Shown here: positions 12,971 to 64,000 of the stretch, in pieces
Position numbering within the stretch: the first letter of the stretch is position 1
Layout: each line of letters opens with the position of its first letter
Notes under the pieces: generated by a model
Seen by the model: the letters and a program-made list of their open reading frames with translations, nothing else
Told to the model about the DNA's origin: nothing
The model's database searches: none
Assembly: GCF_003030345.1 (NCBI RefSeq)
Contig: NZ_CP028158.1
Coordinates: 3,162,001-3,226,000 of the forward strand
Source: Plantactinospora sp. BC1
Lineage (GTDB): Bacteria; Actinomycetota; Actinomycetes; Mycobacteriales; Micromonosporaceae
Length of the DNA stretch: 64,000 nt
Direction: 5' to 3'
Position numbers and translations under genes: made by a program

Positions 12971-12977
12971 GTTGTCG

Positions 12978-13350
12978 TGGAGGTGCCGGGAATCGAACCC
13001 GGGTCCTTCGTCGCCTTGCCAGGGCTTCTCCGAGCGCAGCTCGCTGTGCCTCTACTCGGCCCCTCCGATCACGCGAGCGAGTCGGTGTGACGGGCCCAGT
13101 CGCTGATTAATCTCGCCGCACGGACCCCGCGACCGGGTCCGATTGGCCAGCCTCCTAGCTGATGCCGGCTAGCTGGGTCGAAGGCACTCCCAGGCCGACA
13201 GACTTGCTACTCGCCTCAGGCGGCGAGAGCGAAGTCAGCGCGATTCTGCTTGGCGCTTATTGGTTTCCGACGAACGATTCTCGAGACGACGTCGGCTTCC
13301 TCGGCTCGCTTCCCCTGCCGCAACGTACGAAGTCGAAACCAGTCACCCCC
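12978..13350 (-). ncRNA. ssrA: Transfer-messenger RNA (tmRNA)
   Basis: About 373 nt. The 5' end GGGGGTGACTGGTTTCGAC pairs with the 3' CACCTCC to give the acceptor stem; CCA is not encoded. The 3' part has a T-arm (GGGTTCGATTCCC). The tag-coding frame (13254-13216) gives AKQNRADFALAA followed by TGA, with GCC as the resume codon and the degradation signal LAA at the end. tmRNA with SmpB frees ribosomes stalled on broken messages and marks the products for proteolysis. smpB lies just upstream on the same strand. Confidence 0.97.
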
Positions 13351-59293: not shown

Positions 59294-60156
59294 GGATCGA
59301 CGTCGAGGAGCTGGTGCTGCGCTACGGCGACACCACCGCGCTGGACGGTCTCACCTTCAGCCTGGCCGGCGGGAAGATCTACGGGCTGCTCGGCCGCAGC
59401 GGCTCGGGCAAGACGAGTCTGCTCTCCGTGCTGGCCGCCTTCCGCCGGGAGTCCGCCGGCCGGGTCCGGATCGACGGCCGGCCCGTCTTCGAGAACGCCG
59501 CCGTCACCCGGCAGATCGTCATGATCCGGGACGGCGGTGAGACGACCCGGATCGGCACCGTGGCGGACGCGATCTATTTCGCCGAGTGGCTCCGCCCCAC
59601 CTGGGACGGCGAGTACGCCCGCAGCCTGCTCGACCGGTTCGCACTGAAGCCGAAGGCGCGGGTCGGCGAGATGTCCAGGGGGCAGCGCTCGGCACTGGGC
59701 GTCGTCGTCGGGCTGGCCAGCCGGGCTCCGCTGACCATCTTCGACGAGTCGTACCTCGGCATGGACGTCCCATCCCGGTACGCCTTCTACGAGGCGCTGC
59801 TCGCCGACTACATGCGGCATCCGCGCACCATCGTCCTCTCCGCGCACCTGATCGAGGAGGTCGCCCCGCTCCTGGAGGAGGTCGTCATCATCGACCGGGG
59901 CCGGCTGGTGGTGCACGAGGAGACCGAGAGCCTGCTCGCCCGGGGCAGCGCCGTCACCGGACCCGCCGGGCAGGTCGACACCTTCACCGCCGGACTGACC
60001 GTGCTCGGCAGCCGGGAACTCGGGCCGACCAAGTCGGCGATGGTCTACGGCGAACTGGACGAGACCCAACGCCGCGCCGCCGCCGAAGCCGGGCTGGAAC
60101 TCGAACCCATCGCCATGCAGGACCTGTTCGTGCACCTGACCGGAGGGCCCCGATGA
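59290..60156 (+). CDS. ABC transporter ATP-binding protein
   Basis: A 288-residue cytoplasmic ATPase. Walker A GRSGSGKTS (about 36-44), Walker B LTIFDES (about 149-155) and the H-loop SAHLIEE (about 181-187). The signature is MSRGQRSALG rather than LSGGQ, and the Q-loop region is divergent, as in YtrB/BcrA-like export ATPases. It is co-translated with the GntR regulator upstream and the permease downstream (ATGA overlaps on both sides). Substrate unknown, perhaps peptides or antibiotics. Confidence 0.92.
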   Translation: MRIDVEELVLRYGDTTALDGLTFSLAGGKIYGLLGRSGSGKTSLLSVLAAFRRESAGRVRIDGRPVFENAAVTRQIVMIRDGGETTRIGTVADAIYFAEWLRPTWDGEYARSLLDRFALKPKARVGEMSRGQRSALGVVVGLASRAPLTIFDESYLGMDVPSRYAFYEALLADYMRHPRTIVLSAHLIEEVAPLLEEVVIIDRGRLVVHEETESLLARGSAVTGPAGQVDTFTAGLTVLGSRELGPTKSAMVYGELDETQRRAAAEAGLELEPIAMQDLFVHLTGGPR

Positions 60157-60860
60157 GATTCCCCAGCCGCCTGCTGGCCAGCACCATGGTGCACGCCTCG
60201 ATGCTCTGGGCAGGCTTCCTCGCCGTGGTCGCGGTGATCGTGCTGGGCATCGCCGTCTTCGGCCGGGTGACCGCAAGTGCCTGGGAGAAGGCCGCGGTGT
60301 TGCCGCGCTGGTACGTGCTCTTCGTCGGCATCGCGCTCATCCGCGAGTTCCTGCCGCTGTACGTGGCGCACGGGCAGACCCGACGCCGGTTCGGCGTACA
60401 CGCGGCCGTCACGGTGACCCTGCTGGCCCCGTTCCTCTCCGCCCTGCTGGTGGTCGGCTACCTGATCGAGACCGGGGTCTACTCGCTCGCCGGCTGGGAG
60501 CAGGCGCTGGACCGGACCCACCTGTTCGGCGAGCCGACCCAACTGCACCTGGTCTTCCTGGAGTACGCCCTGGAGTTCCTGGTCTGGCTGGCCGGCGGGG
60601 CGTTCATCGGTGCCGCCTACTACCGGTGGGAGGCCGGCGGCCTGCTGATCGGCATCCCGGTGGGTGCCGGGCTGATCCTGCTCACCCAGGCCATGATCGG
60701 CGCCGACTTCGGGCTGCCGGTGGTCGGCCGGATCCTGGAGTCGAACCCACCCGGGTCGCTGGCGCTGGCGGTCGCCGTCGGGCTGGCCTCCTTCGTCACC
60801 TGCCTGGCGCTGACCTGGTCGACGATCCGCGACATCCCGCTGCGCAACAACATCGGCTGA
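60153..60860 (+). CDS. ABC transporter membrane protein
   Basis: A 235-residue membrane protein with about six spans (first at about 17-38). It overlaps the ATPase gene by four bases and matches the ABC-2-like permeases of YtrA-regulated operons only in size and topology. A conserved-looking YVAHGQTRRRF loop lies between spans 2 and 3. The third gene of the GntR operon. Confidence 0.8.
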   Translation: MRFPSRLLASTMVHASMLWAGFLAVVAVIVLGIAVFGRVTASAWEKAAVLPRWYVLFVGIALIREFLPLYVAHGQTRRRFGVHAAVTVTLLAPFLSALLVVGYLIETGVYSLAGWEQALDRTHLFGEPTQLHLVFLEYALEFLVWLAGGAFIGAAYYRWEAGGLLIGIPVGAGLILLTQAMIGADFGLPVVGRILESNPPGSLALAVAVGLASFVTCLALTWSTIRDIPLRNNIG

Positions 60861-60950
60861 CCGGGCCACGACGGCGACGGGCGACGGGCCCCGGGTCGGT
60901 GGCCCGGATATCGGGTACGCCCACGGCGCCGATCCGGTTAGCCTGGATCC

Positions 60951-61082
60951 GTGGCCAGTTCCGCCGGTAGCGCGTACCCCGACCTTCCCGGTCGGGTGGT
61001 GCCCGCGTCCGGGTCCGCCCCGACCGTGGGCCGACGGCGTCCGGTGGCTCGTTCCCGAGCCCGCCGAGGCCGCCTGAGCTGA
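60951..61082 (+). CDS. Putative arginine-rich leader peptide of argS (43 aa)
   Basis: A leaderless-looking ORF: GTG six bases after TAGCCT, TGA at 61080-61082. The N-terminal half is unremarkable (MASSAGSAYPDLPGRVV). The last 17 residues, GRRRPVARSRARRGRLS, contain eight arginines. Their codons are CGA, CGG, CGT, CGT, CGA, CGC, CGA and CGC: CGA and CGT are otherwise rare in this DNA, and seven of eight are read by the same tRNA-Arg (ICG). A hairpin lies within the run. Likely acts as a sensor of charged tRNA-Arg for the argS gene 105 bp downstream. Confidence 0.6.
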   Translation: MASSAGSAYPDLPGRVVPASGSAPTVGRRRPVARSRARRGRLS

Positions 61083-61096
61083 CCACCTGATCACTG

Positions 61097-61116
61097 CCGG
61101 CGGACCGATCCGCCGG
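61097..61116 (+). promoter_or_regulatory. Hairpin after the arginine leader ORF
   Basis: CCGGCGGA and TCCGCCGG form a perfect 8-bp stem with loop CCGA, extendable by two pairs, 15 bases after the leader stop codon. Confidence 0.7.
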
Positions 61117-61187
61117 TATCCCCGTACGCCGATCAGTCCGCTCCGTCCCGTCCGCCACGCGGACCGGAGCCAGAGAGGCGTACCTGG

Positions 61188-62906
61188 ATGAATCTCGAAA
61201 GGCTGCTCACCGACCGGCTGGCGCCGTCGTTCGCGGCGCTGGCCGGCGGCCCGGTGGACCCGGCGGTCCGGCGTTCCCGGCACGCCGACTTCCAGGCGGA
61301 GGCGGCGCTGCCGCTGGCCCGCCGGCTCGGCCGGCCGCCCCGGGAGATCGCCGCCGAGGTGGTCGAGCACGCCGCACTCGTCGGCCTGTGCTCGTCGGTG
61401 ACGGTCTCCGGTCCCGGATTCGTCAACCTCACGGTCGCGGACGACCTGCTCGGCGCGCTGCTGTCGAGGATGGCCGCCGACCCCCGGCTCGGCGTGCCGA
61501 CCGTGACCACCCCGGAGACGGTGGTGGTGGACTACTCGGCGCCGAACGTGGCCAAGGAGATGCACGTCGGGCACCTCCGGTCGACCATCATCGGTGACGC
61601 CGTCGTCCGGCTGCTGGAGTGGCTCGGGCACCGGGTCGTCCGGGCCAACCACCTCGGCGACTGGGGTACCCCGTTCGGGATGCTGATCGAGCACCTGCTC
61701 GACCTCGGCGAGTCCACCGCCGTCGCCGAGTTGTCGATCGGCGACCTGGACTCGTTCTACAAGGGAGCGCGGGTCAAGTTCGACGCCGACGAGGCGTTCC
61801 GGCGGCGGGCCCGCGAGCGGGTGGTGGCGCTACAGGGCGGGGACGAGGCGACGCTGCGGCTGTGGCGGCTGCTGGTCGAGGAGTCGGAGTCGTACTTCCT
61901 GGGCGTCTACGACCGGCTCGACGTGCTGCTGACCCGGGCGGACTTCGTCGGCGAGAGCCACTACAACCCGATGCTCGGCCCGGTCACCGACGAACTGGAC
62001 CGGCTCGGCCTACTCGTCGACAGCGGCGACGCGGCCTGCGCCTTCCCGCCCGGCTTCCCCGGCCGGGACGGCGAGCCGGTGCCGCTCATCGTGCGCAAGC
62101 GGGACGGCGGGTACGGCTACGCCGCCACCGACCTCGCCGCGCTCCGGTACCGGACCCGGGAACTCGGCGCCACCCGGCTGCTCTACGTCGTCGGGCTGCC
62201 GCAGCGGCAGCACTTCGAGATGGTCTACGCGGTCGCCCGGCAGGCGGGCTGGCTGCGGCCACCGGCCCGGGCCGAACACGTCGGCTTCGGGCTGGTCCTC
62301 GGTCAGGACGGCCGGAAGCTGGCCAGCCGGGCCGGCGACTCGGTGAAGCTGGTCGAACTGCTCGACGAGGCCGTCGACCGGGCGGCGGCGCTGGTCCGGC
62401 AGAAGAACCCCGACCTGACTCCGGACGCGGTGCTCGAACTGGCCCGGGCGATCGGCATCGGCGCGGTGAAGTACGCCGACCTGGCCAGCGACCGGACCCG
62501 GGACTACGTCTTCGACTGGGACCGGATGCTCGGGCTCTCCGGCAACACCGCCCCCTACCTCCAGTACGCGCACGCGCGGATCCGCTCCATCTTCCGGCGG
62601 GCCGGCCGGGCGGCACCGGAGGGCGTACCGGTCAGGGTGGTCGAGCCGGCCGAGCGGGCGCTCGCGCTCGAACTGCTGGACTTCGGCGCGGTCGTCGACG
62701 CCGTGGACCGGACCCTGGAGTTCCACCGCCTCGCCGGTCACCTCCACGCGGTCGCGGTCGCGTTCAGCGGCTTCTTCGAGCACTGCCCGATACTCCGCGC
62801 CGAGCCGGCCGTCCGGGAGAGCCGGCTGGTCCTCTGCGACCTGACCGCCCGGGTACTCCGGCAGGGCCTGCACCTGCTCGGCATCGCCACCCCGGACCGG
62901 ATGTGA
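61188..62906 (+). CDS. argS: Arginyl-tRNA synthetase
   Basis: A 572-residue class I synthetase. N-terminal Add-1 domain (about 1-110), HIGH-type motif APNVAKEMHVGHLRS (HVGH at about 125-128), KMSKS equivalent GQDGRKLASRAG (about 372-383) and the C-terminal anticodon-binding DALR domain (about 455-572, ending GIATPDRM). The sequence VVVDYSAPNVAKEMHVGHL is of the E. coli/Streptomyces type, not the mycobacterial type, so the genome may carry a second ArgRS. It stands alone, preceded by the arginine leader. Confidence 0.97.
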   Translation: MNLERLLTDRLAPSFAALAGGPVDPAVRRSRHADFQAEAALPLARRLGRPPREIAAEVVEHAALVGLCSSVTVSGPGFVNLTVADDLLGALLSRMAADPRLGVPTVTTPETVVVDYSAPNVAKEMHVGHLRSTIIGDAVVRLLEWLGHRVVRANHLGDWGTPFGMLIEHLLDLGESTAVAELSIGDLDSFYKGARVKFDADEAFRRRARERVVALQGGDEATLRLWRLLVEESESYFLGVYDRLDVLLTRADFVGESHYNPMLGPVTDELDRLGLLVDSGDAACAFPPGFPGRDGEPVPLIVRKRDGGYGYAATDLAALRYRTRELGATRLLYVVGLPQRQHFEMVYAVARQAGWLRPPARAEHVGFGLVLGQDGRKLASRAGDSVKLVELLDEAVDRAAALVRQKNPDLTPDAVLELARAIGIGAVKYADLASDRTRDYVFDWDRMLGLSGNTAPYLQYAHARIRSIFRRAGRAAPEGVPVRVVEPAERALALELLDFGAVVDAVDRTLEFHRLAGHLHAVAVAFSGFFEHCPILRAEPAVRESRLVLCDLTARVLRQGLHLLGIATPDRM

Positions 62907-62931
62907 CCGCATTCCGGTCGTAGGCGGTGTG

Positions 62932-62982
62932 GCCCGCCCCGGTTCGCCGCCCAAGGGAAGGTGGCGAACCGGGAGCGGGCCG
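62932..62982. terminator. Bidirectional terminator after argS
   Basis: GGCCCGC-CCCGGTTCGCC pairs with GGCGAACCGGG-A-GCGGGCC: 18 bp with one bulged A, between argS and the convergent small gene. Confidence 0.85.
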
Positions 62983-63004
62983 GTCGGGTCACGGAGCGGA
63001 GCGG

Positions 63005-63289
63005 TCAGCGACGGCGCGGGACCCAGTAGAGGATCTGGCCGGTGACCAGCGCCGGATGCGTGTCGGGCAGCGCTTCCAGCGCCCGGACGAGGTGCGCGGC
63101 CAGGTACATCAGCAGTCCCACCCGGTCACCCCGGAAACCGATCAGCAGCGCCAACCGGGCCGGCGCACACGGCCACGGGTCGGCACAGGTCCGGCAGCGG
63201 TACGCCGGCGCCGGCAGGTGCCGGCCGGTCGGGTACCGCCGCCGCATCCGTCGTGCAGCCCGGTACCAGCGTTCCTGCGGCCCGATCAC
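63005..63289 (-). CDS. Small Cys-containing hypothetical protein
   Basis: A 94-residue protein from the GTG at 63289. A basic N-terminus (RRMRRRYPTGRH) precedes YRCRTCADPWPCAPAR, a three-cysteine cluster that could bind zinc or an Fe-S centre, then hydrophobic helices (RVGLLMYLAAHLVRAL). No known domain. Its start is three bases from the stop of the next gene, so both are co-transcribed. Confidence 0.65.
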   Translation of the reverse strand: MIGPQERWYRAARRMRRRYPTGRHLPAPAYRCRTCADPWPCAPARLALLIGFRGDRVGLLMYLAAHLVRALEALPDTHPALVTGQILYWVPRRR

Positions 63290-63292
63290 CTG

Positions 63293-63640
63293 TCACACCC
63301 GCGTACCGTGCCGGGCACGCGTGACTCGTCCCGGCTCCAGCACGCCCGTGCGCCCGTTGCGCGGATGTAAGCGGCTCGGCGCGTCCCGGGCCGGGCGGCG
63401 GTTGTCCCCCCGGTAACGGATCGGCGGGGCCGGCACGTCTTGGGACGACGGCCCCCGGGCCTCGGCACGACGAGCGGCCCGGTAGGTCGCGCCGGTCAAC
63501 GGCGGCACCACCGGCGCGTACGGCATCGGCACCAGGTCGACCGAGTCCGGACACCGCCAGCGGAGGCCACACCGGCAGTACCGCCAGAGCCGACGCCAGT
63601 TCCGGCGGTGATACGGCTTCGTCCCGCGACCGATTCTCAT
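63293..63640 (-). CDS. Arg-rich Cys-containing hypothetical protein
   Basis: A 115-residue protein from the ATG at 63640 after AAGGCAGGG. The N-terminal part RNWRRLWRYCRCGLRWRCPDS carries three cysteines in a CxCxxxxxC arrangement; the remainder is Pro/Arg-rich and disordered (APPIRYRGDNRRPARD). No family recognised. Together with the next small gene it is divergent from a helix-turn-helix gene at the window edge, an arrangement suggesting a regulated pair. Confidence 0.65.
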   Translation of the reverse strand: MRIGRGTKPYHRRNWRRLWRYCRCGLRWRCPDSVDLVPMPYAPVVPPLTGATYRAARRAEARGPSSQDVPAPPIRYRGDNRRPARDAPSRLHPRNGRTGVLEPGRVTRARHGTRV

Positions 63641-63857
63641 GCTGCCCTGCCTTCCGAAGAGAAATCCGACGGTGGAATGTGCCGGAGCCGACGTGCTGGT
63701 TGGCCATTCCGCCACCACCACATCGGTCGGACTTTTCACGTCACCGCGACAGCCCGAGGACCGCGCGGAAATGTTCGGTTCCACCCTGGACGCATAGCCC
63801 CTACGCTGGGAAGATGGCGTGCGTCTATGGATAGCGCTGGCCAATCTCTCAGACGCC

Positions 63858-63887
63858 TGAATGCCATTGAATAGCCGTGAATAATTG
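63858..63887 (+). repeat. Three TGAAT repeats at exact 10-bp period
   Basis: TGAAT starts at 63858, 63868 and 63878 in an AT-rich patch 23-52 bp upstream of the helix-turn-helix gene. Spacing of one helical turn is typical of operator half-sites. Confidence 0.45.
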
Positions 63888-63909
63888 ATCTACATCCTGG
63901 GGAATTCTG

Positions 63910-64000
63910 ATGATCGAAGTACCGGAACCACTGGCCGCCTTCATCGTTGTCGAGATCCGCCAGGGCAGGCAGGCGGCCAAGATGACCCAGGAGGCGTTCG
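63910..64000 (+). CDS. Helix-turn-helix (XRE-like) protein, 5' part only
   Basis: The ATG at 63910 follows GGGGAATT. The first 30 residues, MIEVPEPLAAFIVVEIRQGR followed by QAAKMTQEAF, look like the start of an XRE-type DNA-binding domain (helix 1 and the beginning of helix 2). The rest lies beyond the window. It is divergent from the small Cys-protein pair and has phased TGAAT repeats upstream. Confidence 0.65.
   Translation, partial: MIEVPEPLAAFIVVEIRQGRQAAKMTQEAF

Follow-up and report, generated by a model that had tools for sequence, protein, structure and literature searches.

A conserved arginine-rich leader and a predicted ribosome-site-covering RNA switch upstream of an auxiliary arginyl-tRNA synthetase gene in Micromonosporaceae

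The window analysed here is a stretch of 64,000 nt from Plantactinospora sp. BC1, and positions below are window positions unless stated otherwise. It carries an argS gene for arginyl-tRNA synthetase (ArgRS), here called argS2, which is preceded by a short leaderless open reading frame (ORF) rich in arginine codons and by several RNA hairpins (Table 1). By protein family models and genome comparison, argS2 is a second, auxiliary ArgRS gene, and the canonical copy lies elsewhere in the genome. The Arg-rich leader is real and recurs in Micromonosporaceae beyond chance. Together with its downstream RNA helices it appears to form a conserved Arg-specific leader system on the auxiliary argS, with an apparently U-less switch covering the ribosome site, the function of which we infer. 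The leader is interpreted as a charged-tRNA-Arg attenuator of the auxiliary ArgRS gene, a reading to which we give a probability of roughly 0.8.

Results

The argS2 product matched the ArgRS model TIGR00456 with 442 bits (cut-off 261.65) and the families PF00750, PF05746 and PF03485. The other ArgRS of the same genome, encoded at genome positions 4683021-4684571, matches argS2 in two pieces with 27% and 33% identity. Six of the seven genomes of the genus, its own included, carry the second ArgRS type, the whole-length matches being at 80% or more and one of the six, G002, matching in two pieces; G005 gave weak matches only. The closest named relative in the search of genome contigs was Plantactinospora alkalitolerans (80%). 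Across the class, an enzyme of the argS2 type was found in 91 of 296 genomes, 89 of them outside the family and many at 48-57% identity.

The upstream features which the earlier note had described were all recovered, namely the TAGCCT motif six bases before the GTG, the 43-codon ORF with eight Arg in its final 17 residues, the 6-bp hairpin in the Arg run, the perfect 8-bp hairpin after the stop and a third hairpin before the argS ribosome site. The eight Arg codons of the control region are three CGA, two CGT, two CGC and one CGG. A hairpin of the GGCTCG/CGAGCC type is also readable by eye at two other loci (L004, L008) and in the gltX2 tails described below. In helix H2, 61124-61130 pairs with 61177-61183 and 61140-61144 with 61166-61170, while 10 of the 11 pairs of the alternative helix A:C are possible in the window sequence (counted by eye).

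Table 1. Features of the leader locus and argS2 in the window
Feature	Position	Strand	Basis or remark
-10-like TANNNT motif (TAGCCT)	60939..60944	+	six bases 5' of the leader GTG
Arg-rich leader peptide ORF, leaderless, 43 codons and TGA, GTG start at 60951, VASSAGSAYPDLPGRVVPASGSAPTVGRRRPVARSRARRGRLS	60951..61082	+	
Arg control region, last 17 codons, GRRRPVARSRARRGRLS, eight Arg	61029..61079	+	
6-bp hairpin GGCTCG-TTCC-CGAGCC	inside 61029..61079	+	sequence
Post-stop hairpin H1 (A:B), arms 61096-61104 and 61109-61117, perfect 8-bp core 61097-61104 and 61109-61116	61096..61117	+	fold
Segment A of alternative helix A:C, partner C at 61131-61141	61100..61110	+	covariation in relatives
Segment C, 5' arm of ribosome-site helix H2, overlaps the A:C partner	61124..61144	+	fold
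Local hairpin within H2 (GTCCGC/GCGGAC)	61150..61164	+	sequence, fold; differs between relatives
Segment D, 3' arm of H2, holds the Shine-Dalgarno (SD)-like GAGAGG (61173-61178) of argS	61166..61183	+	sequence, fold
argS2, second, auxiliary arginyl-tRNA synthetase, 572 aa	61188..62906	+	TIGR00456, Pfam, genome comparison

Conservation of the leader was studied in a sample of 250 family genomes taken from a larger set, and 190 of the 250 gave a match at E up to 1e-100. Upstream DNA was examined for the best 150 matches by score, in sets of 131, 17 and 2 loci. The scan looked for TANNNT, a spacing of 5-8 nt, a start codon (ATG, GTG or TTG for the 131-locus set; ATG or GTG for the 17-locus set and the controls) and an ORF of at least 10 codons with at least three Arg in its last 17 residues. 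An Arg-rich leaderless ORF was found at 123 of these 150 loci (106/131, 15/17 and 2/2, respectively). The controls gave 15/530 for shuffled upstream regions, 1/106 for reverse-complemented upstream regions and 1/424 for tiles of the window. In the 106 leaders the motif stood 6 nt from the start codon in 62, 7 nt in 43, 8 nt in one and 5 nt in none, and the distance from leader stop to argS was 70-135 nt in 101.

The Arg cluster was kept where the rest of the peptide had been replaced or lost, as in locus L007 (MASPRRRSVAPRRALRDRLR), Salinispora (VSSIELRRTVLDRLS) and Actinoplanes (MHSTFSERRRRLHGRR). The N-termini were diverse and the cluster common to them, for example in L111 (MTSSHAFPTASPDVLFGALRRRRSRDRLR), in L204 (MHSTFSERRRRLHGRR, identical in Actinoplanes palleronii L041), in L108 (VSSIELRRVLLDRLS, similar in Salinispora L022) and in L164 (VFPAVVCAGLCGRVVVRRPGRVVVIERRRIVAAR, identical in Catellatospora coxensis L031). 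Among the 17 distinct 12-codon tails of 42 Micromonospora leaders, six columns were Arg in 16 or 17 of the 17 and the other columns varied; one of these six varied synonymously (CGG 9, CGA 5, CGC 2). Gap lengths inside the leaders were divisible by three in 487/487 and 737/771 pairwise gap runs, a regularity that follows in part from the selection of ORFs open to the stop on both sides of each comparison. Conservation of the ORF in relatives that keep the hairpins had been set as a test beforehand, and the Arg cluster was kept there with one exception, L005.

The codons of the leaders were biased in an Arg-specific manner. Arg accounted for 27.5% of the residues in the leaders and for 46.6% in their final 12 positions, compared with 9.5% in argS2; in the two alternative frames of these leaders its share was 13% and 19%. 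The earlier note had called CGA and CGT rare, and this was borne out in 40 argS2-type coding sequences, where they form 2.3% and 2.0% of 2079 CGN codons; in the leaders CGA alone reached 26% of 680 CGN codons. The share of CGG was 78% in the argS2-type genes and 21% in the leaders. The longest Arg run started with CGA in 98 of 104 distinct leaders. Since only 3.3% of the leader codons from the remaining seven four-fold boxes ended in A, the preference for A-ending codons is specific to Arg. Among the tRNA-Arg genes that ARAGORN named in the regions around the 61 tRNA matches of this genome, two had the anticodon ACG, and CCG, CCT and TCT occurred once each. The ACG-anticodon tRNA-Arg decodes CGA, CGC and CGT via inosine, and codons of this tRNA are a minority in the argS2 genes. 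As a separate observation, canonical argS has the sole tRNA-Arg(CCG) gene found (L268, G000:C1:4680188-4680259) at a distance of about 2.8 kb; the dominant codon CGG would be decoded by this tRNA.

The RNA between leader stop and argS was studied in two alignments, A1 with 35 stretches of the Actinoplanes type and A2 with 38 stretches of the Micromonospora, Plantactinospora and Salinispora types; both are part of the 106 leaders and were picked for alignable length and tail. Hairpin A:B was paired in 100% of cells in A1 and 97.4% in A2. The rival helix A:C was paired in 97.4% and 98.3% of cells, respectively, with changes on both sides, and none of 500 shuffles reached its percentage, changed cells or score in either alignment. 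When A:C was slid by 1-3 columns, paired cells fell to 55% or lower. In A1 the double-sided changes of A:C involved three pairs, a count that one of 500 shuffles reached. The two helices share segment A and are mutually exclusive; both are kept, and A:C covaries. This covariation is good and not final support, because related sequences can beat shuffles without any structure. Helix C:D, which covers the argS ribosome site, was paired in 89.0% of cells in A2 (1/500 shuffles as high) and is also present in the window fold. The stop-to-argS RNA of the window folded at -55.2 kcal/mol (z-score -4.8), which none of 200 shuffles equalled. Automatic detection of H1 sequence by sequence often took the wrong hairpin, and its figures, such as a z below -2 for only 28 of the 101 A:C duplexes, were not used as evidence for or against the helix.

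An RNA model search of the genome gave one clear site, at argS2. Further copies of the element were rejected, the only other match being a weak 20-nt one on the minus strand (E 0.07) inside the same hairpin. Across the class the model matched 6 of 296 genomes, two of them Micromonosporaceae and four others with E 2e-4 to 4e-4. These four weak matches outside the family are loci L251-L254. A scan restricted to U-tract terminators found no such site in 60860-61400. A T-box or riboswitch was rejected as well, since the two Rfam matches with E up to 5 in 59500-64000 lay outside the leader and below the gathering score.

From the 89 genomes of the class outside the family, 28 argS2-type loci were examined, and at none of them did a leaderless ORF with an Arg cluster at its end reach 10 codons. 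Among them, L288 had a 7-codon ORF with two Arg, five had stop-ended Arg-rich stretches without a TANNNT motif, and 26 had TANNNT 6-7 nt before the start of argS itself. Canonical argS was rejected as the regulated gene, as the three loci read by eye (L002, L011, L014) had a leaderless argS and no leader; four further canonical loci, for which wrong ORFs had been displayed, were set aside.

At four loci (L103-L106) a second gltX gene, for glutamyl-tRNA synthetase, lies directly upstream of argS2 and is 73-76% identical to the other gltX copy. Two gltX copies are present in genomes G082, G095 and G120 (one genus) and in G248, and in each one copy adjoins argS2 upstream. The C-terminus of this gltX2 is Arg-rich (GRERTLARLRAALDRLS; GRERTVARLRAALDRLS in G248) and is followed by hairpins similar to those behind the leader peptides. 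In an argS2 tree of 50 chosen sequences the gltX2 loci nest among leader loci (five label changes, minimum two). The leaders have features in common with the gltX2 tail, ten of them matching it in 38-41 of 54 bases and three others in 36, 30 and 20. These values do not exceed what many canonical gltX tails show, with up to 39/54. A gltX2 tail may have given rise to the leaders, or a leader may have been taken over by gltX2.

Elsewhere in the window, a transfer-messenger RNA gene was located on the minus strand at 12977-13350, with the tag peptide AKQNRADFALAA.

Discussion

From the arrangement of these elements a four-step course can be proposed. The transcript would begin with the leaderless start codon, from which a ribosome would translate the short Arg-rich peptide. 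The CGA-led run would be decoded mainly by tRNA-Arg(ACG), and because such a run is very sensitive to the charging of this tRNA, the ribosome would stall there when charged tRNA-Arg drops. The helices themselves have support. In the OFF state, hairpin A:B together with helix C:D would bury the argS2 ribosome site; a stalled ribosome would bias the nascent RNA to helix A:C, and in this ON state segment D and the ribosome site would be freed. ArgRS2 output would then rise until charging recovers. The attenuator probably acts on the translation of argS2. Control at this level is likelier than classical termination, given the lack of U-tract sites in the scan and a last helix that extends into the region of the start codon; a terminator that is U-less or depends on Rho is the less likely alternative. 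Only in transcripts ending after segment C do A:B and A:C compete, with mean pairing probabilities (P) of 0.26-0.73 and 0.24-0.69.

A number of results weigh against this reading. In full-length equilibrium folds with ribosome masks at several positions A:B was kept (mean P 0.72-0.94) and the ribosome site stayed mostly paired. The effect of ribosome position on partial transcripts was modest and inconsistent between the alignments and between the two masking modes, and in one masked-fold series freeing the leader end lowered A:C, opposite to a simple stall model. As the equilibrium folds do not switch, the decision would have to be kinetic, or to involve partners outside the model, or to run in another direction than assumed. 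The double changes of A:C in A2 fell in one pair only, a count reached by 299 of 500 shuffles, and C:D was paired in 73.8% of cells in A1, which is not significant (183/500 shuffles reach it), segment D being gappy there. The CGA pattern may in part be fixed by a constraint on the RNA sequence (GACGCCGGCG). In the Salmonella speF leader, arginine was sensed equally well whether the Arg codons were rare or frequent (PMC6386406), and this equivalence weakens the need for CGA.

The incomplete distribution of the leader counts on the same side. The scan found none at 25 of the 131 and 2 of the 17 family loci. At 18 of the 25, a TANNNT motif stands 5-8 nt ahead of an in-frame start of argS itself; at L163 a reading frame ends close upstream of argS, as read by eye, L185 carries a short ORF (VIHGVEQRRIETAG) containing two Arg, and L103-L106 are the gltX2 loci described above. 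In L005 (genome G006), a close relative, the hairpins are retained and the Arg run and stop are lost by a natural deletion, and the remaining ORF continues in frame across the hairpins up to an overlap with the start codon of argS. The earlier proposal of an attenuator that responds to uncharged tRNA-Arg is supported: the Arg cluster is conserved, CGA is enriched for Arg only and the helix rivalling the post-stop hairpin covaries, whereas the postulated change of fold was not reproduced by equilibrium modelling.

A narrower proposal, which we regard as tentative and rather doubtful, is that the leader is an isoacceptor-specific charging sensor. Its CGA-led runs would tune it to tRNA-Arg(ACG), and translation of the spare ArgRS would be gated by the A:B/A:C/C:D switch. 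In one lineage the gltX2 C-terminus would serve as the sensor, a complete protein-coding gene thereby taking on a second role in the attenuator, and would link two auxiliary synthetases.

Four other explanations of the locus were weighed. Transcription attenuation or Rho-dependent termination, in which leader translation decides whether RNA polymerase passes to argS2 and in which the last hairpin would end transcription and not act as a lid, is unlikely. It would be the usual mode of trp-type leaders, some actinobacterial leaders are described without obvious terminators (PMC1262725) or with unclear ones (PMC8079986), and a co-transcriptional competition of A:B and A:C is plausible. The scan for U-tract sites argues against it, and in several folds the 3' arm of the last helix extends almost to the argS start codon, a few bases away, as for ribosome-site sequestration.

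It is improbable that the peptide itself, or its translation through reinitiation or coupling, matters and that tRNA charging is not sensed. A model with reinitiation at leader genes has been put forward by Seliverstov and co-workers. In L005 a direct coupling is suggested because the ORF overlaps the argS start. The usual stop-to-argS distance given above is long for reinitiation, and the N-terminal part of the peptide is clade-specific while the same kind of Arg codon recurs.

A drug sensor has very little probability. Micromonosporaceae include macrolide producers, and the Arg run could be taken for a +X+ (Arg-X-Arg) motif that stalls macrolide- or ketolide-bound ribosomes, as in ErmDL, and so reports an antibiotic and not charging. 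The downstream gene is an ArgRS and not a resistance gene, and +X+ is a residue motif, whereas here a synonymous codon, CGA, is enriched about tenfold. Chance, by which GC-rich DNA would yield Arg-rich ORFs and hairpins everywhere, is hardly credible in spite of the Arg already present in the other two frames, given the control counts against 106 of 131 family loci, the Arg-only codon bias and the covariation of A:C.

If the attenuator reading is true, arginine would join the amino acids for which leader-peptide control of the cognate synthetase is assumed in Actinobacteria, and many Micromonosporaceae would be predicted to carry an inducible spare ArgRS. The mechanism is open to direct testing with about 100 natural leader variants (104 distinct), among them a relative that lacks the run and four in which a gltX tail replaces it.

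Comparison with known systems

The argS-lysA operon of Brevibacterium and Corynebacterium is said to respond to arginine and lysine. As cited in PMC4787780, Vecchione and Sello reportedly described in 2010 an auxiliary, antibiotic-resistant tryptophanyl-tRNA synthetase under ribosome-mediated transcriptional attenuation, which we take to be trpRS1 of Streptomyces coelicolor. As an auxiliary synthetase gene of an actinomycete under ribosome-mediated attenuation, trpRS1 is the nearest functional analogue of the argS2 locus. It differs in responding to Trp and not Arg and in being titled transcriptional, whereas the scan at argS2 gave no U-tract terminator and the ribosome site there is covered by the last helix. 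Because the auxiliary enzyme of the Trp case is antibiotic-resistant, a so far unknown natural stress or inhibitor of ArgRS is possible.

No argS leader peptide was met in the literature searched, which included the accessible parts of PMC4833913, PMC2965389 and PMC9437257 and left subscription papers largely outside. The candidate attenuators of Streptomyces trpS and leuS (Seliverstov 2005, PMC1262725) likewise belong to actinobacterial synthetase genes and combine leader peptides with competing hairpins, but their terminators have poly-U tracts; the same paper, in the part available, reports no conserved upstream RNA structures for the arginine operons of its genome set. In Streptomyces lividans TK24, leuL, trpL, alaL and thrL precede leuS, trpS, alaS and thrS (PMC8079986), and several of these leaders are leaderless and some lack a U-tract, as at argS2, whereas argS and arginine are absent from the main text as available. 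Translational attenuators of the ermDL type resemble the proposed switch in that a stall in the leader refolds the mRNA and favours the next gene, and differ in their drug inducer and methyltransferase gene. Compared by description and not by sequence, the Salmonella speF leader orf34 (PMC6386406) differs from the present leader in being SD-led and in controlling an ornithine decarboxylase via Rho and RNase G, and resembles it in that two consecutive Arg codons sense arginine, a hairpin follows the stop and the speF ribosome site is sequestered by RNA.
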